Origin: Methanothrix sp.
GTDB taxonomy: Archaea; Halobacteriota; Methanosarcinia; Methanotrichales; Methanotrichaceae
Assembly (NCBI GenBank): GCA_020844795.1
Contig: CP086218.1
Location: 1,028,982-1,069,530 of the forward strand
DNA length: 40,549 nucleotides
Reading direction: 5' to 3'
The position numbers were made by a program, and so were the translations under genes. Positions 2,799 to 30,476 of this stretch are shown here, piece by piece; within the stretch, counting starts at the first letter, position 1; each line of letters begins with the position of its first letter. Under the pieces are notes generated by a model, which was given only the letters and a program-made list of their open reading frames with translations, was not told the DNA's origin and did not search any database.

Positions 2799-4715
<1,917 letters not shown>

Positions 4716-4747
4716 TTACATAAATAACCCACAATCAAATTATCGCA

Positions 4748-4757
4748 TTATATATAA
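4748..4757 (-). promoter_or_regulatory. TATA box of gyrBA
   Basis: On the minus strand this reads TTATATATAA within a strongly AT-rich stretch (about 4700-4830). An archaeal transcript would begin about 25 bp downstream, near 4723-4728, giving a leader of about 25-30 nt before the TTG start at 4697. The rest of the gap up to 5013 holds no gene that I can support; 4850-5010 is GC-rich with small inverted repeats only. Confidence 0.6.
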
Positions 4758-5013
4758 CTGTTTGCACGAAATAATCGCCAACCAGCAGCTGCGAGATTTT
4801 GATTCTACATATTTTATTCTAATATTATTTTGTCAGGCGCTCTCTGAAGCCGGAGGGGACGGACCGCCCCCTCGACCGGCAGGCAGGAAGGTATAGATTC
4901 CCCTCCGGATACTTAGCCTTAACTGGCCTTCTGGCCTTCCCTGCCGGGAATGGATCGCCCTCGTGCAAAAAGGCAGCTTGAGGTCAACCCGGAGACGGGG
5001 ACTTTAAGAGACC

Positions 5014-5406
5014 TCAGGCGGGTACGAACTTCGTCCCGTAGTAGATTATCCCCCGGTCCCCATCCCTCCCCAGGATCCTGAAGACGGGCCTGACCCTCAT
5101 CCCGATCTCAATATCTGACGGGCTGCAGATCACCTGTCCCGTCAGCCTCGGCCCCTCCGCCAGCTCTATTATGGCGAGGTTGTAGGGGGTCTGCCTCTTG
5201 AAGTCGTCGGTGGCGTTGTAGATGGTGGTGTAGGTGACGACCTTACCTTCGCCCCCGAACTTGTGATCCTCCATCCTCGCCTCCCTCCGGCATGTGGGGC
5301 AGATCGTCCGGGGGGGGAAGTAGTACTCGTCGCAGTTTTTGCAGTGGGTCCCCACCAGGTTGTACCTCTGGGGTATATGTCTCCAGAATCTCGGCACTGT
5401 GGACAA
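5014..5406 (-). CDS. DUF35 OB-fold/zinc-ribbon protein of the thiolase-HMG-CoA synthase complex
   Basis: 130 residues. N-terminal rubredoxin-like zinc ribbon with CKNC and CPTC (Cys22, 25, 36, 39) followed by an OB-fold with the characteristic GKVVTYTTIY segment. In archaea, DUF35 proteins hold acetoacetyl-CoA thiolase and HMG-CoA synthase together so that acetoacetyl-CoA passes between them through a shared CoA site; the two enzymes are encoded directly upstream here. The start codon is TTG at 5406 with GAGGTG six bases before it. That ribosome-binding site coincides with the end of the frameshift-corrected thiolase reading frame, so the genes are probably translationally coupled. Confidence 0.9.
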   Translation of the reverse strand: MSTVPRFWRHIPQRYNLVGTHCKNCDEYYFPPRTICPTCRREARMEDHKFGGEGKVVTYTTIYNATDDFKRQTPYNLAIIELAEGPRLTGQVICSPSDIEIGMRVRPVFRILGRDGDRGIIYYGTKFVPA

Positions 5407-5430
5407 CTTCTCACCTCGACATTATGTGGA

Positions 5431-6573
5431 CTATCGCCGTCCCGCCGCACCCGCCACGTTGTGGGTGAGGCCGACCTCGGCGCCCTCCACCTGCCTCTTG
5501 CCAGCCTCCCCCCGGAGCTGGAGGACCATCTCGTAGGCCTGCTTAATCCCGGTGGCGCCCACGGGATGGCCGCAGGCCTTGAGGCCACCCGACGTGTTGA
5601 CGGGGATATCTCCGCCGATGGCGGTGACCCCTTCGATGACGGCCCTCCCCCCCTCTCCCTTCTCGACGAAACCGAGATCCTCGATCGCCACGATCTCTCC
5701 TATGGTGAAGGCGTCGTGGACCTCGGCGAGGTCGACGTCCTTCACCTCTATCCCTGACATATCGAAGGCCTTCCGGGAGGCGGATACCGTGGCGTCCAGG
5801 GTCGTAATATCCCTACGGTCGTGGAGGGCGAGGGTGTCGCTCGCCTGGGCAGCCGCCAGGATCCTTATGGGTCCGTCGGAGAACTTCCTGGCCATCTCCG
5901 TCGGAGCCAGGACGACGGCAGCAGCCCCGTCGGTGATAGGCGAGCAGTCCAGGACCCGGAGGGGATCTGCGACGAGAGGAGATCGGAGGACGTCGTCGAT
6001 GGTGATCTCCATCTGGTACTGGGATATGGGGTTGTTGCAGCCGTTCTGGTGGTTCTTTACGGCGACGGCGGCGAGCTGCTCTCGGGTCGTCCCGTACCGG
6101 TGGATGTGGAGCCTCGCTATCATGGCGTAGAGGGCGGGGAAGGTCGCCCCAAAGAAGCACTCCCACTCCCGGTCGGCGGCGGCAGCGAGGGCGTCGGCGG
6201 CGACCCCTCCGGTGACGTCGGTCATCTTCTCGACCCCGGCGGCGATGACTACGTCGGAGTAGCCGCTGGCCACCGCCAGGACCCCCTGCCTCAGGGCGAG
6301 ACCCCCCGAGGCGCAGGCGGCCTCGACCCTGGTGCTGGGGACGTGGAGGCGGGAGAGGCCGGCGCAGTCGGATATCAGGGCACCTATATGCTCTTGCGAG
6401 ACGAACTGGCCGCCGCTCATATTCCCGACGTAGAGGCCGTCGATCTCCTCGCCGCTGACGTTCGCGTCCTCCAGGGCCATGATCCCGGTCTCCACCACCA
6501 GGTCCCGGAGGGAGTCGTCCCAACGCTCCCCAAACTTGGTGCAGCCAGCTCCGATAATCGATACAGATCTCAT
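5431..6573 (-). CDS. Acetyl-CoA acetyltransferase (thiolase), frameshifted near 3' end
   Basis: As read, 380 residues. It condenses two acetyl-CoA to acetoacetyl-CoA, the first step of the mevalonate pathway to archaeal isoprenoid lipids. Motifs of the archaeal/SCP2-type thiolase: nucleophilic Cys87 in [26 protein letters not shown] with catalytic His, and LTHNV near the C-terminus. The expected ending ([10 protein letters not shown]) is missing in frame, which ends [12 protein letters not shown], but appears in the next frame as [14 protein letters not shown] ending at 5411. Adding one G within 5451-5456 would restore a 387-residue protein. The gene lies four bases after HMG-CoA synthase, so they form an operon. 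It may be a real mutation or a sequencing/assembly error; the rest of the frame is intact. Confidence 0.92.
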
Positions 6574-6577
6574 GGTA

Positions 6578-7615
6578 TCACAGCCGCAGCTTTCCCTTGT
6601 GCTTTGTATAAACGGCGTAGTCGAGGTGGACTACGTCCTCGAAGTAATCCCTCACCCTGGGCGCCCGGTCCCGGATATCATCTATGCCGTCTTTTACCCT
6701 TATGCTGAAGGCGTCGCTTCCAGCGCCAGATCCGAAGCTGGCGAGGAATATCCTCTCCCCCGGGCTTGCGACGTCCAGGGTGGCGGCGAGGCCTATGAGG
6801 CTCGATCCTGAGTAGGTGTTCCCTATCCAGGGGACGACGAGCCCCGGCTCGGTCTGATCTCTTGAAAAGCCGAGCCTTTTGGCGACCCTTTCGGGGAACT
6901 TGCCGTTGGGCTGGTGGAATACGGCGTAGTCGTACTCTTCGGGGCCGGTCTCCATCTTGTCAAGCAGCCCCCGGGCGGCGGAGGTGACGTGCTTGAAGTA
7001 GCCCGGCTCCCCGGTGAACCTCCCCCCGTGCTCTGGGTAGGCCATCCCCTCCCGCCTCCAGAAGTCGGGGGTGTCGGTGGTGAAGGAGTAGAACCCCTCG
7101 ATCTCCGCCGCGAGGTCTTCGCGGCCGATGATGAAGGCAGCTCCGCCGGCGGCGGCGGTGTACTCCAGGGCGTCCCCCGGAGCACCCTGGCTGGTGTCGC
7201 TGCCTATCGCGAGGCCCAGGTCGATCAGCTCCGAGGAGACGAGGCCGATACAGGCCTGGACCGCCGCGGTCCCCGCCTTGCAGGCGAACTCGAAGTCGGC
7301 GGCCGTAAGCTCGTGGTTCACGCCTATCGCCTCCCCGACGATCGTCCCCGTCGGCTTTACCGCGTATGGGTGGCTCTCCGACCCGGCGTAGATCGCCCCG
7401 ATCCTGGCCGGATCGATGGATGCCCGCCTGACGGCGTTCCTCGACGCCTCCACGGCGATGGTCACAGCGTCCTCGTCGATGTCGGGGACCGACTTCTGGA
7501 TCACGTTGAGGCTCTTGGCCATATCCTCTCTCTCGCCCCAGACCCTGGCGATCTCCTCGGCCCGTATCCTGTACCTGGGTATGTACACTCCATAGCTTAC
7601 TATTCCCGCCGGCAT
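6578..7615 (-). CDS. Hydroxymethylglutaryl-CoA synthase
   Basis: 345 residues, the length of archaeal HMG-CoA synthases. It condenses acetyl-CoA with acetoacetyl-CoA to HMG-CoA in the mevalonate pathway. Catalytic triad visible: Glu80 ([12 protein letters not shown]), acyl-carrying Cys112 (EFACKAGT) and His234 ([11 protein letters not shown]). C-terminal [14 protein letters not shown] is the conserved glycine-rich loop. ATG at 7615 with GAGGTGAT just upstream, overlapping the stop of the regulator gene. Order regulator-HMGS-thiolase-DUF35 is the conserved archaeal arrangement. Confidence 0.95.
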
Positions 7616-7619
7616 TGCA

Positions 7620-8393
7620 TCACCTCTGATGGAGATTGGCCGCCAGATCCTCGGCCGAGATCTTGGTGGCGAGGAGGGGTATCCTCTCCAGCTCTGCGAT
7701 CCTCCTGGCGACGCCGTCCACCTCGGCAGGGTCGATCCCCTGAAGGATCACGGCACCGGGTTTGAGATGGCTGACCCTCACCGCCACCATCGGGGACCTC
7801 CCCGTGGTGACGCCGGTGAATATGAGGGCCCGGGCGGTGCTCCTGCCGTATATCCTGTGAAATTGGTCGGGAAGAAGCTCTAAAATCGCCTTCATGCTGT
7901 CGATGATAGTATAACCGTATATGGAGACGTCGGCGTCGCCGCAGACTACGCAGGCGCCGATCATATCTCCGAACTTTGAGAGCGAAAACGGCTCGATGTA
8001 TTCGCAGACGGAGCAGATCCGTCCGAAGGACCCTCCGTCGCTGAGCATGGCGCAGTAATTCCGGGCGGTCCCGCTCCCCCGAAATTCGTCGATGGCCAAG
8101 AGGGCATCGATGATCTTGCTGACGATGAGAATCCCCGGGGATCTACGTCTTCCGCTTTCGTAATCGCTTATCACGGATGGCGAGATCCCCAGGTGATTGG
8201 ACAGCTCAGTCTGGGTGACGCCGAAGTTCCTCCGCCACTTCTTCAGCGTCTCGCCGGGATTCTGCGATAAAGTGATTTCACCAGCCATCTTCTCTGCGAG
8301 AAGTCCTCGAATATCTGAGATATCCCCCCCGGCCGACATGGAGCTGAGAGGGGGCTGCTTAGAATATAAAGTTAACGAAGAGGAGTTCGTCAT
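7620..8393 (-). CDS. XRE-type helix-turn-helix transcriptional regulator of the mevalonate cluster
   Basis: 257 residues from the first ATG. HTH_3/XRE domain at about residues 49-99 ([26 protein letters not shown]). A middle segment carries two CxxC pairs (Cys127/130 and Cys148/151), a possible metal-binding ribbon; the C-terminal half is of a type found in archaeal regulators next to HMG-CoA synthase. Its stop overlaps the ribosome-binding site of HMG-CoA synthase, so it is the first gene of the operon and may regulate it (inference). The start is uncertain: a TATA-like CTTTATATTC lies inside the first 18 codons, and an in-frame ATG at 8339 (Met19) lies about 25-30 bp beyond it, which suggests a leaderless start there. 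Confidence 0.85.
8363..8372 (-). promoter_or_regulatory. TATA-like element for the regulator-HMGS-thiolase-DUF35 operon
   Basis: The minus strand reads CTTTATATTC here. Transcription about 25 bp downstream would start near 8340, coinciding with the in-frame ATG at 8339. This supports leaderless translation from Met19 rather than from the ATG at 8393. Confidence 0.4.
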
Positions 8394-8428
8394 ATGACGA
8401 GATAGATCGATCTCCGATAAAACAAGGA

Positions 8429-8521
8429 TGCGCCGACCGGGATTCGAACCCGGGTTTTGGGCTTGCTCCGCGATCTATGCCGCTTGGAAGGCCCAAGTCA
8501 TAACCACTAGACCATCGGCGC
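8429..8521 (-). tRNA. tRNA-Gly (anticodon UCC) with 21-nt intron
   Basis: The minus strand folds as a cloverleaf: 7-bp acceptor stem GCGCCGA/TCGGCGC, D-arm with AGTGGTTA, 5-bp anticodon stem TGGGC/GCCCA, loop C-U-UCC-A-A, 4-nt variable loop and T-arm CCGGG-TTCGAAT-CCCGG; discriminator A73, CCA not encoded. The loop is interrupted between positions 37 and 38 by an intron at 8464-8484. Exon/intron borders form a canonical bulge-helix-bulge: CUUC pairs with GGAG (4 bp), each flanked by a CAA bulge, and GCG pairs with CGC inside the intron. Exons are 8485-8521 and 8429-8463. A T-rich stretch (TTGTTTTATC) follows downstream and may end the transcript. Confidence 0.93.
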
Positions 8522-8771
8522 TCAGATCCCCCACCGCCTGGTGGAACTTAACGTTTTCGATCCGCAGGTGCGCCACCAACCCGGGGGCGGGACCCCGGCC
8601 GCGAGCCCCCTGAGAGGCTTGCCCCAGCAGAAAGGGTCGGTTGATGGCGATGGCCTTCATATCGGATATATCTCGACAAAAACGCATCCGCCGCGACGCA
8701 GGGTTAGATAGTTTGATATATCTGGGATATCTGAGAACTGCGGCGTTGACGAATTTTTTCCCGGAGGGAAA
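8522..8771. other. Gene-free divergent region between tRNA-Gly and carS
   Basis: No credible gene. The tRNA promoter probably lies at 8545-8556 (minus strand GTTAAGTT). The carS side holds an AT-rich area with GATATATCT twice (8665-8673, 8715-8723) and GATATC at 8726-8731. The second copy (TTTGATATATC) is the best TATA candidate for carS. The GC-rich part 8560-8640 shows no clear structure. Confidence 0.4.
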
Positions 8772-17662: not shown

Positions 17663-18802
17663 TCAGAGGTTCTGGAGGTATACCTCGATCCGATCGAGCC
17701 CCTCGGCGATCCTCTCGATGGAGCTGGCGTAGGAGAAGCGCAGGTACCCCTCGCCTTCGGCGCCGAAGTCGATCCCCGGGGTGACGCCGACTCGGGCTTT
17801 CTCCAGGATATCGAAGGCGAGGCGGTAGGAGTCGGGCGAAATATGCCGGGCGTCGGCGAAGACGTAGAAGGCCCCCGTCGGCTCGACTGTGATACCGAAG
17901 CCGAGATCCCGGAGCCTTTTGATCATAAACCGCCGCCTTTCGTCGTAGGTCCGCCTCATCCGTTCGACGTCGTCGCGGGCCTTCCGGAGGGCGGCGATCC
18001 CCGCCCTCTGGACGGCGGAGTTGGCACAGATGAAGAGGTTCTGCTGCATCTTCTGGATCGGCCGGATGAACCTGGGAGGGGCGATCAGGTATCCCAATCG
18101 AAGGCCGGTCATGGCGTAGAGCTTCGAGAAGCCGTTGAGGACGACGGCGTCGTCGGAGAACTCCAGGATCGAGCGCTCCTTTCCATCGTAGACGAGGCCG
18201 TGGTAGATCTCGTCGGAGATGACTTTGGGCGAAAGCCCGGCGATCTCCTCCATCCTCTCGGCGGATAGGACCGTCCCCGTGGGGTTCGACGGCGAGTTGA
18301 TGACGATCGCCTTCGTCCTGGGGGTGATCCGCGAGGCGACGGCCCCGGGGTCGAGCTCGAAGCCCTCCTCGGCCCGGACGGGGACCGGCACCGGGACGCC
18401 GCCGGAAAATCTGATGAAGTTCGGGTAGCAGGCGTAGCCGGGGTCGGAGATGATCGCCTCGTCCCCGCCCTCCAGGAGGAGGGAGAAGACGAGCATCATC
18501 GCCGGCGACGTCCCGGAGGTGACGACGATCCTATCGGGATCGACGGTGACGCTGTACTTCTCATCATAGTGCTCGGATATCGCCTCCCGGAGCTGCGGGT
18601 CGCCGCAGCTGTGGGTGTATTTGGTGTGCCCCTCGGCCAAGGCGGCCTCCAAAGCCATGCGGATCGGCGCCGGGAGGGCGAAGTCCGGCTCGCCCACCTC
18701 CAGGCGGACTACATCGATCCCCTGGCGCTCCATCGCCCGGGCGCGCTCCGATACCTCCATCACCAGAAAGGGGGTCATCTCTTCGGCTCGTCGTGAGATC
18801 AT
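17663..18802 (-). CDS. PLP-dependent class I/II aminotransferase (aspartate/aromatic aminotransferase type)
   Basis: 379 residues, fold type I aminotransferase, cytosolic. Motifs: VGEPDF near the N-terminus (residues 36-41), VTSGTSPAMML cofactor-phosphate loop (94-104), SPSNPTGTV (170-178), ISDEIYHGL with Asp/Tyr contacts (195-203), and the Schiff-base lysine Lys227 in NGFSKLYAMTGLRLGY. The typical C-terminal Arg (LRFSYA) binds the substrate carboxylate. Substrate (aspartate, aromatic or branched amino acid) cannot be fixed from sequence. ATG at 18802; a TATA box lies about 40 bp upstream. Single-gene unit. Confidence 0.93.
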   Translation of the reverse strand: MISRRAEEMTPFLVMEVSERARAMERQGIDVVRLEVGEPDFALPAPIRMALEAALAEGHTKYTHSCGDPQLREAISEHYDEKYSVTVDPDRIVVTSGTSPAMMLVFSLLLEGGDEAIISDPGYACYPNFIRFSGGVPVPVPVRAEEGFELDPGAVASRITPRTKAIVINSPSNPTGTVLSAERMEEIAGLSPKVISDEIYHGLVYDGKERSILEFSDDAVVLNGFSKLYAMTGLRLGYLIAPPRFIRPIQKMQQNLFICANSAVQRAGIAALRKARDDVERMRRTYDERRRFMIKRLRDLGFGITVEPTGAFYVFADARHISPDSYRLAFDILEKARVGVTPGIDFGAEGEGYLRFSYASSIERIAEGLDRIEVYLQNL

Positions 18803-18836
18803 GTTGGCGGGCTCCTCTTGGTCCTGATACTAGATC

Positions 18837-18846
18837 ACAATATAAA
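18837..18846 (-). promoter_or_regulatory. TATA box of the aminotransferase gene
   Basis: The minus strand reads GTTTATATTG; the predicted start is about 18815-18820, a leader of 13-18 nt before the ATG at 18802. The rest of the gap to 18966 is AT-rich and gene-free; it contains TTTTAA-type tracts that could end the large gene upstream. Confidence 0.5.
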
Positions 18847-18966
18847 CACATAGGCGTATCCGAAAATACCGACGAAATCTCATATAAGACTTGTTTTAAG
18901 CTGTTGGCAAATAGACTATCTTTTTTAGCATCCGCTTGGCCCCTATAACCAACCTAAACGCAGATT

Positions 18967-21900
18967 TTAAGGTGAAATTGGAGTCACGAAGTCATCCCTC
19001 ATTTTATAGGCGGAAGAGGAACCACTTTCCACAAGCTCATTCAAGAGATAGATAACTGAATCCCGAATAGAAGAATCGGACTTAAGAGAAGCAGGCTGGC
19101 CATAGACCCAACGCCGTAATATAGATTCTAGATAGAAAACCGAGTTTTCGTTCGAAAGAATGAGCCTTGGATCACCCTGCTGAAGCTTCTTTGAAATGAT
19201 TTCAAATGCACCAGGCAAGGATTTCTCTCCGATGCGGTAGAGAAATCGACTATAGGCAACCAGTACGGCGGAGGAAGGGGCCAATTTATCAAAGAATCTA
19301 TCGAGCCTCCAGGCGTTCCCCTCCAAGCGCTGCCAGTGTCTCAATCCTTTGTCCCAGCTCAATCCAAGAAAAAGAGCGTCCAAGAGCGCAATCCGATCAG
19401 AATTTCTCTTATCGAGATTTTCAATCCACGTAGTGGTCGCCATCTTGTCAGAAATAGCCTCCCAAAGACCCCAAAAGACCGATCCACTGCCTACGATATC
19501 TTCATAAATGGTCAAACTTCTGACAAATTCTGCTACTTCCTTCGGATGGAAGCAAACTGCATTAATTATCGGCTCGCACACATAGGCCGCATCTTTCGCC
19601 TCAAGTTTTAAGGCGAAACGGGCAAGTCTATCCATACATCCGCTTTCAAGCTCGTAGTTCCGATACTCGTGCGTATCACCTCGCGAGCCCTCATATTTGT
19701 TCCACCAGCCAACTAGCGAATCGGCCACATATCTAAAGAATTTCCTTGACATTTCTCCTTGAGGACCGTTGTATAATATTGGAATTAACCGAAGTAAAGA
19801 TTCTTGCCCCCAAGCCTCGAAAAGATCAAGATCAAATAGCTCTTGTTCATCGAGACTTTCTCTTTTATGGATGAACTCACTAATTTTTTTGGCTATATCT
19901 CTAGCCTTTTCTTCTCTGCTTAACCGTTCAGAATACGGCTTTGTTTTCTCTTGCAAGTCAAAATCGCGTTGTAGTTTGGCGGCATAAATCACCGCTGCCA
20001 TGCAAGTTAGTGTCATTTCTTTGTCTGCCTGCCAGAGGAAAGTACCAACCCCTTCAGCAGCAGATACCACGACTCTCTCTGAAGCATGATTGAGGGAAAG
20101 GGAGAGTGCTTCTTGCACCATTTTTATAGTATCTTCGGAAAGCTCTTTGCTAAGCAGTGCCGGCAAAATGAATGCGGATTCTAGCGAACCATCTATTGAA
20201 TAGGAAGCTTCAGTGCTCTGGAACACTGACTGCAAGACTACTTCTATACACCAATCACGTTCTTTTTGTGACAGTTCGTCCCAGTAGTCCCGAACACAAA
20301 TTGCTGCCGTGCAGGTTGGGCCCGCTGCACCCATTTGTCTTTCGATTGAATGGGACATGTTTTCAAGCTCTAAATGGACATGTTGGGCTTGCGCCAAACG
20401 TTGTCGCCACTCTTCTGGTTTTGAGTCCTTTTCCCGCTTGAATGTCGACATAGCCCAAACATTCAAACTTATTCTATTATTATATGCCTCAAACGAAGGA
20501 GCATCTTTAGCAAGATATTCTTGTATATCGGGCTCTGGATTTGGCAAAAGTAAAATTTTATTTTCATTATCTGCTTTTTGGAATTTCATCCGTCGCAGAT
20601 CCATTCGAAGAAGGGATAACCTCCAGTTAAAGTCATCTTCAGTTTGTTGATTTGTTGGTGGCAATTCTTGATAGTGCTGATCTAGAATCTGCCAGACCTC
20701 ATTCCTATAAGGACCGAATTGGAGCTGGAGCGCCAATTTCTCCAAATGAAGCCTTCGATGCTCTAAACTATCGGCTGTTTTTCTTTCTTCAATATAAATT
20801 CTATTTTTGTCCATGATTGGAAAATATGAGAATATACTGGTGGGTGTGCTCTGCTCATGGACAACTCTCCATATATCTAGCTTGATAAAATATGGACATG
20901 TAAGAAGGGAAAGGGCAGCTTGCTTAGCTTGTTTCGGATATGCTGTGGCAATGCTAGCAACTACTGCAGTGATAGCGACATTGTTGCAACCCTTTAACAG
21001 ATAATTCAAAACTTGTTCAACCTGCGGTGAATTCAGCTCGCAAAGTTCGAGCAACCAACTTTCGAGCGCCATGAGAGCACTCTGAATAACATGGGGTCCT
21101 GTAGAAGTGCCTCGATAGAGAAGCCATAGGCGATCGCTGCACCATTGCTCAGCATTTGTTCCATCTGCCAATTGGAATGTGACCTTAAACGGATACTCAA
21201 CGAATTCAACGAATTCGCGACTTATTTCCCGATCTGCGTAACAATTTGAGCAATGATTTAGTAAGCGCACGATGAACTTTAGCCCAATCTTTGGGTGATA
21301 TCGTAGGAGGAATATGAATGGTCCGTGGTAGGCGCTGGCTGGAAAGAAGTCAAAGTCCAAGTGCTCACGAAGACCGAAAATAGATTCTATATCTCTGCCG
21401 CCATAAAAATCGCAATCCTTCTTGTCTTTAGGTTCAGGCGCATCGATCCATTTAGACTCCGCTAATTTTATTATTAAATCAGGAAAGTCCCTGCAAGCAG
21501 CGCCTCCATCCAGATACATCAAGAGCAACTTTGCCAGTTCATTAGATGTATGATCCTTTTTCTTGTTGTGATCTATCGCTCGTTGAACGAGTTCTTCAAA
21601 ATTATTAGATGATGCTTTGGGGATCTTTGCTATGATCTTGAGTAGCTGTTTCTGTGTACCTTCCTGCCTCCAATAGTCGGTCTTTGACAGCAAACTGAAA
21701 GCTATTTCAGCGGCATCTTCCGATCCTTCTGGATAAGGCGAATCCCACCAGTTGACAGTTTGGCTCCAATCTTCTAACAACCCCACCAGCAATTGGATAT
21801 CTCCATCATGAAACTTGGTTAGGTTCTGGTGTATTAGCTTTAAAATCGCTGCCCAAGCCGAACCCTGAGGGACGAAAATAGCCGACGAAGCCTCTCTAAT

Positions 21901-24018
21901 GGGGACCCAAGATGGGGCAATTTTGCACGCGACCCGAAGTAGATGGACCATACGACGGAGCAGTTCAGCATCGTTCTGAAGAAGTATTTCATCATTGCGG
22001 GTATTGAAATCAGCTGCACCCGAAGATAGCATCACCGACACGAGCGTGTCATCCCGAGATTGTTGGGCCAAGTTCCTATCTGAAATTACTTTGAGAACAT
22101 ATTTGTCGGCAACTTTTGGCTCACATTCGAGCATTTCCCCGAGCCACTTTCGATAGGCACGTCTAAGAGCAGGGTGTGTACCCACGTTTTGTAGGAAAGA
22201 CGAATGGCCGGATAAGTGGTGATGTGCAAATCTTTCCTCCAACCAATCAACTAAAGCCCAATCTTCAAGGACATCGTGCGCAGGCGCTGCGAGACTATCG
22301 GTTCTTTCTGAAAACTCAATCAAGTTGTCCTGATGTAGGCGCTCTAGGACTTCCTGGTCCAAACCATCGCAATTCGCATATGGACTCAAGGCACGTGCCC
22401 GAAGAAGCGCGATCTTTGTAAAGACTTCCTCACGCCGTTTCGGCATACCCCCAGCGGGCTTATCATCTTCTCGCACAATATCCCGCCAGACCTTACTTCG
22501 AAAGCTTCGCTCATCTTGAGGAATATTTGCATCCTCTGCCCACTGCATTCTTGCGGCCATGTTCAGGATGTATGGGTTACGGAAAAGCTTTCGAAGCGCG
22601 GGGTTCTTACTGGGTCTTTTGAGCTTAGGGATCGCTGCGATCGCTTTATCTAACTCGGCATCGTCAAGAAGTGGGACGGTAAACACCTCGTGTTTGAGGC
22701 CAACAGCTTCCAAGAAAGCTTCACAAACCAAATCGAGCGAGTAATCCCGGCATGTCAGAATCATCTTCCAGTCGTCATCTTTTAGCATTTTTCCGAGGAA
22801 GTCACTAAATGCGTCTCGGTTGGATCTCTCTAACAGTCTTTCAATACTTTCAACCAATATTAATTTTCGCGAACGCAGTGCTAATAGGGAGAAAAGGCTT
22901 TTAGAGGTAATAGGTGCCGGTATTTGCATATTGTGAAGCGTTTCATCCAGATGCGCAGTGGCGAATGCTTCAGCTCGGAAGGATAAGGCAAGATGGTTTT
23001 GGCTCAGTTTCTCAACGACTTCTTTTGCAATTGCTGACTTTCCCGACCCAGGAGGACCTGTAATAACTACAACATGGCTTCGCTCTAAACTCTGGAGCAG
23101 TTGTGTGCAAAGCTCACCACGTGGGATGTGGTGGTCAGGCCAAATGGTATCTGAAATGTTATTCAATACGACTTGTGAGTGATCACGAAGTACCCGAATA
23201 GCATCATGCTCAGAATCTCCTATAGGTGAGTGATTTTGTTGTAATCTTTCGGGTAACTTATCGTAGGTAAAGCTCCCGGCATTCGGCGCAGTACTCCCAA
23301 CCAAAGATAGAAGTTCGTTCCAAGTTGCCTCAGCAATACCGAGTTCATTTGGCCCACGTGCAGCTTCAGCAAGTATTATTTTCATCCAATATTCGGTTTG
23401 GCGATCGAAAGGCAGAATACGAAGCGATTTAAGGAACTCCCAAAAATTATCATCGTCCACATGGCCTTCATTGGTGACTTCGACAATTTTCCTGATTTCA
23501 TCGCGATAATCCCGTGTAATCTTACTTAGAAATTTGGGCACCTCTGTTCGTTGCAGAAAATCAGCAGCATCCAAAGAAACCCGAGCACAATCTAGCAAGT
23601 TGCCAAAGTTGGCTAGAAGTCGCTCCGAACTCTGGAGCGAAATAATCACGATCAAATCGTTTGATTTATCAAAATGACCTTCTGATTGGAAATCTCGCCA
23701 GGCAGATGCGATGGTTTCTCGGCAGTCTTCGTTTTTGCTGCTGATATGGAATTTACGCTTGATTTGCGCCGCCAAATGACGTTCGCTTTCGTCTCTCCTT
23801 TTTCCAACAACTAACAAATCGTCAGTGTTCCATCCTAAGTGCGCAGTTTGGAAGTGGACTTCCTTTATCTGGCAATCTTCGAGACAAGGCGGAATTCCTC
23901 GGACAAGTAGAAGCGCAAGGAAAGCTGCGTTTACGTGTTGTTCAAAAAATGTTCCAGCGCCACCAGTAGATGCGGGGTTTGTTGCCTCCGGTTGAGTTTG
24001 GCGCGAGGAGCTATTCAT
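18967..24018 (-). CDS. Giant STAND/NACHT-type P-loop NTPase with putative N-terminal PD-(D/E)XK nuclease domain (Avs-like candidate antiphage protein)
   Basis: 1683 residues from ATG 24018 (GGAG five bases upstream; the GTG at 24024 overlaps that site). N-terminus (about 18-180): GTFFEQHVNAAFLALLL with Glu26, TDDLLV with Asp66/67 and AAQIKRKF with Gln85 and Lys87, the E...D...QxK pattern of Cap4/Mrr-like restriction-endonuclease folds. STAND core: Walker A GPPGSGKS (321-328), Walker-B-like KLILVESIE (Glu390), sensor ILTCRD (Thr422, Arg424), and LFRNPYILN (about 478-486). From about 600 to the end it is helical-repeat-like, the usual sensor region of STAND proteins. Base composition is clearly AT-richer than all neighbours, suggesting acquisition. 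Architecture matches Avs-type defence ATPases, which recognise phage proteins and then cut DNA; nuclease assignment is tentative, sensor target unknown. No accessory gene, integrase or att site seen beside it. Confidence 0.85.
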   Translation of the reverse strand: MNSSSRQTQPEATNPASTGGAGTFFEQHVNAAFLALLLVRGIPPCLEDCQIKEVHFQTAHLGWNTDDLLVVGKRRDESERHLAAQIKRKFHISSKNEDCRETIASAWRDFQSEGHFDKSNDLIVIISLQSSERLLANFGNLLDCARVSLDAADFLQRTEVPKFLSKITRDYRDEIRKIVEVTNEGHVDDDNFWEFLKSLRILPFDRQTEYWMKIILAEAARGPNELGIAEATWNELLSLVGSTAPNAGSFTYDKLPERLQQNHSPIGDSEHDAIRVLRDHSQVVLNNISDTIWPDHHIPRGELCTQLLQSLERSHVVVITGPPGSGKSAIAKEVVEKLSQNHLALSFRAEAFATAHLDETLHNMQIPAPITSKSLFSLLALRSRKLILVESIERLLERSNRDAFSDFLGKMLKDDDWKMILTCRDYSLDLVCEAFLEAVGLKHEVFTVPLLDDAELDKAIAAIPKLKRPSKNPALRKLFRNPYILNMAARMQWAEDANIPQDERSFRSKVWRDIVREDDKPAGGMPKRREEVFTKIALLRARALSPYANCDGLDQEVLERLHQDNLIEFSERTDSLAAPAHDVLEDWALVDWLEERFAHHHLSGHSSFLQNVGTHPALRRAYRKWLGEMLECEPKVADKYVLKVISDRNLAQQSRDDTLVSVMLSSGAADFNTRNDEILLQNDAELLRRMVHLLRVACKIAPSWVPIREASSAIFVPQGSAWAAILKLIHQNLTKFHDGDIQLLVGLLEDWSQTVNWWDSPYPEGSEDAAEIAFSLLSKTDYWRQEGTQKQLLKIIAKIPKASSNNFEELVQRAIDHNKKKDHTSNELAKLLLMYLDGGAACRDFPDLIIKLAESKWIDAPEPKDKKDCDFYGGRDIESIFGLREHLDFDFFPASAYHGPFIFLLRYHPKIGLKFIVRLLNHCSNCYADREISREFVEFVEYPFKVTFQLADGTNAEQWCSDRLWLLYRGTSTGPHVIQSALMALESWLLELCELNSPQVEQVLNYLLKGCNNVAITAVVASIATAYPKQAKQAALSLLTCPYFIKLDIWRVVHEQSTPTSIFSYFPIMDKNRIYIEERKTADSLEHRRLHLEKLALQLQFGPYRNEVWQILDQHYQELPPTNQQTEDDFNWRLSLLRMDLRRMKFQKADNENKILLLPNPEPDIQEYLAKDAPSFEAYNNRISLNVWAMSTFKREKDSKPEEWRQRLAQAQHVHLELENMSHSIERQMGAAGPTCTAAICVRDYWDELSQKERDWCIEVVLQSVFQSTEASYSIDGSLESAFILPALLSKELSEDTIKMVQEALSLSLNHASERVVVSAAEGVGTFLWQADKEMTLTCMAAVIYAAKLQRDFDLQEKTKPYSERLSREEKARDIAKKISEFIHKRESLDEQELFDLDLFEAWGQESLLRLIPILYNGPQGEMSRKFFRYVADSLVGWWNKYEGSRGDTHEYRNYELESGCMDRLARFALKLEAKDAAYVCEPIINAVCFHPKEVAEFVRSLTIYEDIVGSGSVFWGLWEAISDKMATTTWIENLDKRNSDRIALLDALFLGLSWDKGLRHWQRLEGNAWRLDRFFDKLAPSSAVLVAYSRFLYRIGEKSLPGAFEIISKKLQQGDPRLILSNENSVFYLESILRRWVYGQPASLKSDSSIRDSVIYLLNELVESGSSSAYKMRDDFVTPISP

Positions 24019-24059
24019 TTTCACTCCAAAGATAACCTGATAAGAAATCTATTCTTCTG

Positions 24060-24085
24060 TTGGGCGGTTTTTTTTTTATCTTTTG
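24060..24085 (-). promoter_or_regulatory. Probable promoter of the STAND NTPase gene
   Basis: The minus strand has an A-rich stretch, ACAAAAGATAAAAAAAAAAC, about 50-65 bp before the ATG at 24018. It could serve as BRE/TATA with a start near 24050. On the plus strand the same ten-T run gives no support to another gene. Low certainty. Confidence 0.3.
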
Positions 24086-24139
24086 TACGGTTCCCATCTC
24101 TCCTTGCCCTCTACCCACTCTCACCTCACCTCTCCCCCC

Positions 24140-24526
24140 TCACCCCACCTTCAACTGGGCCTCCACCAGCTCGTCGAGGAAGGACCTCCTCACCTCCGCG
24201 GCGTAGTCCCAGAGGTCGGGGCCGCAGGCGTCGCACTCCCGCCCCCGCTCCTCCATCACCCGGACCAGGTCGAGGAGGGAGGCGTAGAGGAGGGGCGCCG
24301 CCTCCCGGAGCCTCTCGTCGAAGCAGCTCGCTGCCGCCCCCTCCGTCGGGATAAGCCTGCATCCGCCTCCGCCAGCGCCAGCGCCAGCTTCTTCCCAGGC
24401 CATGCAACCGGCCTGCAGGCAGGACCGCGCCACGAAGGGGCAGGCGCGGGCCTCTGCATCCACCTCTCCAGGATCCGTCATCGTCTCCGCCACCTCGCCA
24501 CGGAACGGGCCTGAGATCTCGATCAT
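24140..24526 (-). CDS. Small Cys-rich hypothetical protein (CPx5Cx4CxxW motif)
   Basis: 128 residues. Not a family I can name. It has a cluster Cys29-Pro...Cys36...Cys41-Met-Ala-Trp44 resembling the short CP..C...C.WW motif of small archaeal/bacterial cysteine proteins, a glycine/alanine-rich linker (46-55), and Cys56, 68, 98 and 101 (CDAC). The second half (70-128) is predicted helical and charged. ATG at 24526 lacks a ribosome-binding site, but a TATA box sits at 24541-24548, so the message may be leaderless. GC-rich like the host, unlike the adjacent STAND gene. Overlapping frames on both strands are also open because of high GC, so moderate confidence. Confidence 0.6.
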   Translation of the reverse strand: MIEISGPFRGEVAETMTDPGEVDAEARACPFVARSCLQAGCMAWEEAGAGAGGGGCRLIPTEGAAASCFDERLREAAPLLYASLLDLVRVMEERGRECDACGPDLWDYAAEVRRSFLDELVEAQLKVG

Positions 24527-26485: not shown

Positions 26486-26521
26486 CCTATCCCCGGTCCC
26501 CAGTGGGTTCAGCAGCATATC

Positions 26522-26728
26522 TCAATCCGCCCTGCAGATCTCGCTGGAGGTGGGGGTGTCAAAAAGGCCGATCATGTTCAGAAGGGTAGATTTTCCGCTT
26601 CCGCTGGGCCCCACGATCGATAGGACCTCCCCCTCCTCGATCGTCAGGTCGACGTCGTCCAAGGCCACCAGCTCGACGCCGTCTCCGTATACCTTCCGCA
26701 GCTTCTTGATCTCGATGATGTTGCTCAA
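26522..26728 (-). pseudogene. Truncated ABC transporter ATP-binding subunit (MacB/LolD type)
   Basis: 68 residues from a TTG start. It keeps the N-terminal strand, A-loop Tyr14 (RKVYGDG) and Walker [10 protein letters not shown] (residues 40-48), then [16 protein letters not shown] and stops. A functional LolD/MacB ATPase has about 220-230 residues; the Q-loop, signature LSGGQ, Walker B and H-loop are absent. None of the three frames downstream continues the fold; the TRAM promoter follows. It is therefore a remnant, 22 bp after the permease gene and in the same direction, and cannot hydrolyse ATP on its own. Confidence 0.8.
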
Positions 26729-26750
26729 AATCTGATCGTCTCCATAAATC

Positions 26751-29214: not shown

Positions 29215-30366
29215 TCAGCCCCGGAGGGCTACGACGGGATCGAGCTTAGATGCCTGGTGAGCGGGGTAGACCCCGGCGGCGGTGGAGAGGAGGAGGGTTA
29301 TCAGGGGGAAGGAAAGAAGGTCCCGGGGATCGACGACGAAGGTGAGATAGACGGAGAAGCCGGGGCCGGAGGATAGTGCGATGGCGAGGCTGTTGATGTA
29401 GGCTGCGATTCCGTAGGCGATGATGCAGCCCGCCATACCGCCGGCGAGCCCCAGGATCCCGGCCTCCACGAGGAAGATCCTCCGGATGATCGATGAGGTG
29501 GCTCCCATGGCCATCATCATGCCGATCTCCCTCGTCTTCTCCAGGACGAGGAGGTTCATGACGTTGGCGATCCCGAAGGCGGAGATGACTATCACCAGGA
29601 GCATTATTATGGTGTTGGAGAGCCGGCGGCTCTGGATATTCTCGACGATCCCCGACTGGCTCTGCCAGCTCTCGGCGTTGTAGCCCCGCTCTCTTAGAGA
29701 GGCTGCCACCTCTTCTGCCATGTATATGTCGTCGAGCTTTATCTGGACCTCGGTTATGACGCTCCCCTCCCCGAGGAAGTCTCTTGCCGTCTTCATGGAG
29801 ACGTAGGCGTAGTTCGTAGAGAAGCCGCCGGTGTCGAAGATCCCCGTAACTACGAGGCTCAAGGTCCTGGCGTCGGGAAAGCTCGTCCTGACGATATCGC
29901 CGAGCTTCAAATCCAACCGCTCCGCCATCTCCCTGTCCAGGGCCACCCTCCTGCCTCCCTCGATAGAGTCGAGGCTCCCCTCCAAGATGTAGTCGAGGCC
30001 TATCCTCGATATCTTGTTCAGCTCGTCGGGGACGACCCCCCGGAGGACGACGTTCTCGACCTTCCCGCCGGAGGAGAGGGAGGCGGTCGTCGATAGAGCC
30101 GGGGAGGCGGCCGTCACCCCCGGGATCGTCCAGATCGCATCGAGGAGTGAGTTGTAGAGGTATATCCGGCTCTCGCCCTCCTTCGGAAGGACGGTGACGT
30201 GGGGGACGAACTGGAATATGATCTCGTTGACCGTACCCTCAAAGCCGTTTATCAGCGACCGGAAGAGGATGGTGATGGTGACGGCGAGGGCGACGGCTCC
30301 CACCGCTAAAAGGGTCTGCCTCCTCCTGGCGGTGAGGTGTTTTCTTGCGGCGTAAAGCTCGAACAA
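29215..30366 (-). CDS. FtsX/MacB-type ABC transporter permease (third copy)
   Basis: 383 residues from a TTG at 30366 (MFELYAARKHLTARRRQT). N-terminal helix (about 19-36), extracytoplasmic domain with VPHVTVLPKEGESRIYLYNSL, three C-terminal helices (about 250-275, 300-325, 345-370), coupling helix REIGMMMAMGATSSIIRR, end PAHQASKLDPVVALRG. It aligns along its length with the second copy (same GESRIYLYN/GENHIYLYK, IWTIPGV, ALSTTA words), so the pair arose by duplication. First in the three-permease series; no intact ATPase is encoded in this window. Confidence 0.9.
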   Translation of the reverse strand: MFELYAARKHLTARRRQTLLAVGAVALAVTITILFRSLINGFEGTVNEIIFQFVPHVTVLPKEGESRIYLYNSLLDAIWTIPGVTAASPALSTTASLSSGGKVENVVLRGVVPDELNKISRIGLDYILEGSLDSIEGGRRVALDREMAERLDLKLGDIVRTSFPDARTLSLVVTGIFDTGGFSTNYAYVSMKTARDFLGEGSVITEVQIKLDDIYMAEEVAASLRERGYNAESWQSQSGIVENIQSRRLSNTIIMLLVIVISAFGIANVMNLLVLEKTREIGMMMAMGATSSIIRRIFLVEAGILGLAGGMAGCIIAYGIAAYINSLAIALSSGPGFSVYLTFVVDPRDLLSFPLITLLLSTAAGVYPAHQASKLDPVVALRG

Positions 30367-30476
30367 AGGGTCTCATCTCGGGTTTTATTCCCGTACCTCA
30401 GGGATCCGGACCTTGCTTAAGAAGTTGCGACGCCTCCCTCGGAAGTCGCCAGAGAAGGGGATCTCAGGGAGGCCTC

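Follow-up and report, generated by a model that had tools for sequence, protein, structure and literature searches.

The locus described here raises the question of what a single, very large gene of foreign composition does for a methanogenic archaeon. The gene lies in a window (the whole stretch of DNA that was analysed, 40,549 nucleotides from Methanothrix sp.) on the minus strand at 18967–24018, where it encodes, as a system of one gene, a protein of 1683 aa in which an Avs4-type STAND NTPase follows an N-terminal Cap4-type nuclease domain. We consider it probable that this protein works on its own inside the cell as an Avs (AVAST) sensor directed against viruses, with the STAND core and sensor of Avs4 and a Cap4-type nuclease in the place of Mrr, in which a viral portal would bring about oligomerisation and this in turn the destruction of DNA.

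The reading frame can be extended to a GTG at 24024 (18967–24024, 1685 aa), and residues are numbered here from that GTG rather than from the ATG at 24018, although the ATG is the likelier start because a GGAG stands 5 bases upstream of it. Neither a frameshift nor an internal stop was found in 18967–24024. All the motifs that an initial annotation had picked out in a protein of ~1683 residues are present (E28...D68D69...Q87xK89, GPPGSGKS at 323–330, ILTCRD with R426, and LFRNP at 480–484), as is the long C-terminal region, and judging by their conservation across relatives the motifs exceed chance. The MtrH and CDP-archaeol synthase genes establish the host as a methanogenic archaeon, and composition and gene content suggest Methanotrichaceae. 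Elsewhere in the window, an ABC-transporter ATPase beside two FtsX-like permeases (26500–26740, minus strand) has shrunk to ~70 codons; relative to four congeners it shows an internal loss of ~460–550 bp, apparently in frame, and retains the first part of the protein and its last few residues. An FtsX-like paralogue (29215–30375, minus strand) contains one TGA within the matched stretch, probably N-terminal.

The larger part of the protein belongs with Avs4. Residues ~305–608 (22200–23110, minus strand) comprise a STAND/NACHT ATPase core with a winged-helix part, recognised by the Pfam models nSTAND3 and nSTAND1 and by its conservation, and residues ~609–1685 (18970–22199, minus strand) the C-terminal sensor. 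Positions 159–1569/1570 of the PADLOC Avs4 profile align to residues 268–1678 (E=1.8e-200), while a PDB sequence search with the protein matched the Avs4 structure 8dgf in two stretches (258–1302 and 1455–1677, E=2.4e-93) and returned nothing else of note, Avs4 being the only Avs protein found. Homology to the Avs4 sensor is unbroken over its full length and without a swapped block. The earlier suggestion of an Avs-like family was therefore right, and on sequence homology it can be sharpened to a core and sensor of Avs4 type. The core retains a Walker A motif (323–330), a Walker B acid (E392), a T-x-R motif (R426), an RNP motif (482–484) and an HD pair (583–584). G323, G326 and K329 of Walker A are kept in 91/91 relatives and R426 in 91/92; taken together, Walker A, the acid at 392 (D or E among relatives), R426 and HD583–584 are conserved in at least 89 of 91–93 relatives. 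By likeness to NLRs, the HD pair may be an MHD-like nucleotide-sensing motif.

The N terminus is of another kind. The Mrr nuclease part of the Avs4 profile (positions 1–158) is not matched by the protein, Pfam gives no significant match to the N-terminal domain, and a profile built from six such domains found nothing among PDB sequences; there is a weak sequence match to the PADLOC model DUF626_VIII (E=7e-8), which is consistent with a defence effector. Structure prediction was more informative. A single-sequence fold of residues 2–353 reached a pLDDT of only 35, while an AF2 model of residues 2–300, made from an alignment of 54 sequences from public loci, reached 89.2. In a Foldseek search of the PDB with this model, the top 26 matches were exclusively LmuA, Cap4 or Avs3, led by LmuA of Lamassu (9hr5, E=8e-7) and including Cap4 (6wam, 6wan, 6vm5, 6vm6) and Avs3 (8dgc_A, E=4.7e-4, prob 1.00); no unrelated fold appeared with E<0.1, and 8dgf, the Mrr-bearing Avs4, was not matched. 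The matches have 10–12% identity and, for the best, a TM score (by query length) of ~0.4–0.5, so that a common fold with distant sequence is indicated. A search of a viral structure library with the effector model gave zero hits at E<=0.001. The residues E28, D68, D69, Q87 and K89 are intact and invariant in all of the 68–69 relatives that cover them. Where a putative nuclease had been proposed, to be compared with Cap4, Mrr and Avs proteins, the model thus assigns residues ~1–260 (23245–24018, minus strand) to the PD-(D/E)XK nuclease fold of the Cap4/LmuA/Avs3 type, with DNA cleavage as the predicted activity. With the Mrr part of the Avs4 profile missing and a Cap4-type fold in its stead, the protein is therefore best described as an Avs4 chassis carrying a Cap4-type head.

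How such a protein would act can be proposed from its characterised relatives. According to PMC12931631, recognition of the large terminase, portal or Ksap1 leads the nuclease effectors of Avs1–4 to cleave phage and host DNA and to kill the cell; in Avs3, STAND-driven dimerisation activates the nuclease domains (PMC12198126). By analogy, we infer what the ligand is, and that the protein oligomerises, cleaves DNA and protects, as follows: the sensor of ~1000 residues would bind a structurally conserved protein of tailed viruses, the portal being the likeliest; binding would permit the STAND core to oligomerise, driven by ATP; the oligomer would pair the Cap4 domains; and the paired nuclease would degrade viral and host DNA, ending in abortive infection.

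Portal recognition is the step that is not secured, because identity to the Avs4 sensor of E. coli is only ~25% and the phage proteins to which other Avs proteins respond are different ones. It is possible, though we incline against it, that the same sensor-nuclease machine has a trigger other than the portal, the Cap4-type clade having diverged to respond either to a different viral protein, be it the terminase, the capsid or an early protein, or to a factor carried on a plasmid. The low identity and a clade apart from all Mrr-type Avs4 would suit such a reading, as would the precedents of Ksap1 among the triggers of Avs1–4 and of JADA, an unrelated protein sensed by Avs5 (PMC12931631); against it stands the homology to the Avs4 sensor along its whole length, in which no block has been swapped. 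As to a source of the portal, no portal gene was found in the genome itself with PF04860. A search for phage records found none. A contig of another genome of the same family (G021) carries a tailed-virus head module (L124:4333–14519), in which a gene for the large terminase (4333–5961) is followed by genes for the portal (6922–8763), for head morphogenesis and for a protease, and in which a head protein has an Alt-like ADP-ribosyltransferase match. This contig could be a binning error. If it is not, the putative provirus is a candidate source of the trigger, and the module suggests that tailed viruses probably infect the host family.

Returning to the portal-triggered sensor that we favour, its gene was acquired horizontally. 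The GC content is 45.1% compared with 61.5 ± 3.3% for neighbouring genes (z −5.0) and GC3 is 42.5% compared with 81.8 ± 6.4% (z −6.1), the reference being 21 neighbouring genes, all from the window. The gene is thus AT-richer than its GC-rich neighbours, as had been noticed at the outset, and far from the host-like composition that would have spoken against the initial annotation. A scan of the 60 nearest genomes gave no match, and matches occur in 4/394 genomes of the phylum. One congener (G006) has an empty site, where the flanks corresponding to 18818 and 24133 of the window are ~107 bp apart, so that the inserted segment is 18819–24132. Composition, absence from relatives and the empty site together uphold the acquisition of one cassette between host genes. 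The bordering genes, both outside the system, are a class I/II aminotransferase (17663–18802, minus strand), which is a host gene syntenic in congeners, and a small conserved gene with unassigned function (24140–24526, minus strand). Between them, at 18803–24139 of the window (compared with congener loci L117, L118, L119 and L120), other congeners hold different genes: a PifA-like KAP NTPase (PADLOC PifA matched along its length, E=6e-121) together with a nucleotidyltransferase in G001, a nucleotidyltransferase/HepT (MNT/HepT) pair in G004, and a reading frame encoding HEAT repeats and probable membrane segments in G008. From these differing inserts we conclude that this is a small exchange site at which defence and toxin-antitoxin genes are swapped; no integrase or tRNA was found to mark it.

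An acquired gene may of course be decayed or silent and without function in its host, and the AT-rich composition, not ameliorated to that of the host, as well as an IS-broken homologue in another archaeon (G266) could be read in this way. We regard this as unlikely, since 1683 codons are free of stops, every catalytic and ATPase residue is kept, and the Shine-Dalgarno sequence is at the right spacing. That the protein is a non-defence STAND regulator of signalling or transcription, Avs-like in its ATPase core only, is highly improbable: STAND ATPases do act also in transcription, for example MalT (PMC10427625), but the homology here is to both the core and the sensor of Avs4, a conserved nuclease fold takes the place that a DNA-binding output domain would have as effector, and the gene has a patchy, acquired distribution and shares its site with defence genes.

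How widely is this architecture spread? When the protein alone served as query, scans of genomes and viruses gave no match because its peptide patterns were too specific, but a profile made from the conserved core found 228 relatives in genome contigs, the best 80 of which were retained. In most of these best 80, a single long ORF includes this N-terminal domain as well (68 such ORFs in the loci compared as a whole), a proportion that is not a census because a query of this type biases the ranking. The relatives come from Pseudomonadota, Acidobacteriota, Planctomycetota, Verrucomicrobiota, Bacteroidota, Bacillota, Cyanobacteriota and others. Found in full length across many phyla of bacteria, in two further Methanothrix and in an archaeal copy that an IS interrupts, the Cap4-headed Avs4 architecture is neither unique nor specific to archaea, and it is common in bacteria.

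In a tree of the core and proximal sensor (made by a quick method, with SH-aLRT as the only support), the protein falls into a group with strong support and 37 members, each of which has a Cap4-type head if its N terminus is present. Elsewhere in this group, among bacteria, are two Methanothrix proteins (L014, which lies at a contig end and is without its N terminus, and L051), and the broken archaeal copy of G266 falls in another Cap4-headed group. In that copy (L006:730–2762 and L005:1666–5418) the Cap4-headed Avs4-like gene is split by an IS5-like transposase gene, and a recombinase-like fragment adjoins. The Mrr-headed proteins, EcAvs4 and two from archaea of the same class (G208, G384), form a separate group, so that the phylogeny sets the window protein with Cap4-headed proteins and apart from Mrr-headed Avs4. 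The scattered positions suggest that methanogens acquired such genes independently on several occasions. Near homologues there are type I, III and IIG restriction-modification genes, Hma, SoFic and integrases; the expectation that homologues lie in defence islands is to this extent supported, but not proven, as the neighbours were counted without a matched control.

In the rumen, AVAST makes up 5.6% of archaeal compared with 0.4% of bacterial defence systems (PMC11834463). The view that the Avs architecture is known mostly in bacteria can therefore be retained only in part: the Cap4-headed form is indeed common in bacteria, but Avs is no novelty for archaea, from which further Avs4 homologues were found here. 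The variety of Avs effectors was already known in outline. The Avs paper of Gao et al. from 2022 is reported to describe varied N-terminal domains. What the present analysis adds is the exact combination of an Avs4 sensor with a Cap4 head, the finding that this combination is widespread and recurs in methanogens, and the exchange site. Databases have up to now defined the Avs4 sensor by an Mrr head; it is shown here to be a chassis with an interchangeable effector, its Cap4-headed form spanning many bacterial phyla and also present in methanogens. It is well conceivable, if still short of probable, that methanogens have repeatedly taken up bacterial Avs4-type receptors with differing nuclease heads, and that in archaeal tailed viruses these still read the fold of the portal. 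If so, Avs4 would be a fold-reading innate immune receptor common to bacteria and archaea and swapped at dedicated chromosomal sites, and a portal-sensing archaeal receptor would test, across domains of life, the recognition of viruses by structure over sequence.

Among known systems, Avs4 (AVAST type 4; EcAvs4, 8dgf; PDLC02169, NF041815) is the closest, as it likewise is a single gene with an N-terminal nuclease, and its STAND core and C-terminal sensor of ~1000 residues are homologous end to end. It differs in having an Mrr head in place of a Cap4-type one and in sequence (~25% identity), and the protein is not a canonical Avs4, with the Mrr part of the profile unmatched and an NCBIfam NF041815 score of 702.6 bits, below the equivalog cut-off of 1500. 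Avs3 (8dgc) is alike in having a Cap4-type N-terminal nuclease on a STAND protein, the domain being named cap4 in PMC11291478, but the sensor of the window protein is of Avs4 type. Membership in Avs3 was rejected, as the terminase-sensing Avs3 sensor is absent according to both the PADLOC profiles (no Avs3 profile among hits with E<=1) and the PDB sequence search. Cap4 of CBASS and LmuA of Lamassu, the best Foldseek matches, have the nuclease fold in common with the head; in CBASS, a SAVED receptor for cyclic nucleotides drives Cap4, and in Lamassu the LmuBC complex drives LmuA, whereas the nuclease described here is fused to a STAND sensor. A CBASS Cap4 effector was likewise rejected, the rest of the protein being Avs4 STAND and sensor and not SAVED, and no cyclase is present among the identified flanking genes. 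A homologue on a Haliscomenobacter plasmid (L008:4742–12209) follows three genes, one for a nucleotidyltransferase, one for a protein with a SLATT domain and one hypothetical, and is possibly a multi-gene variant. It has the same Avs4 core and sensor but a different N terminus, which matches Avs2, LmuA and UG9 reverse transcriptase profiles and is consistent with a trypsin-like protease domain, showing that the effectors carried on the Avs4 chassis vary.
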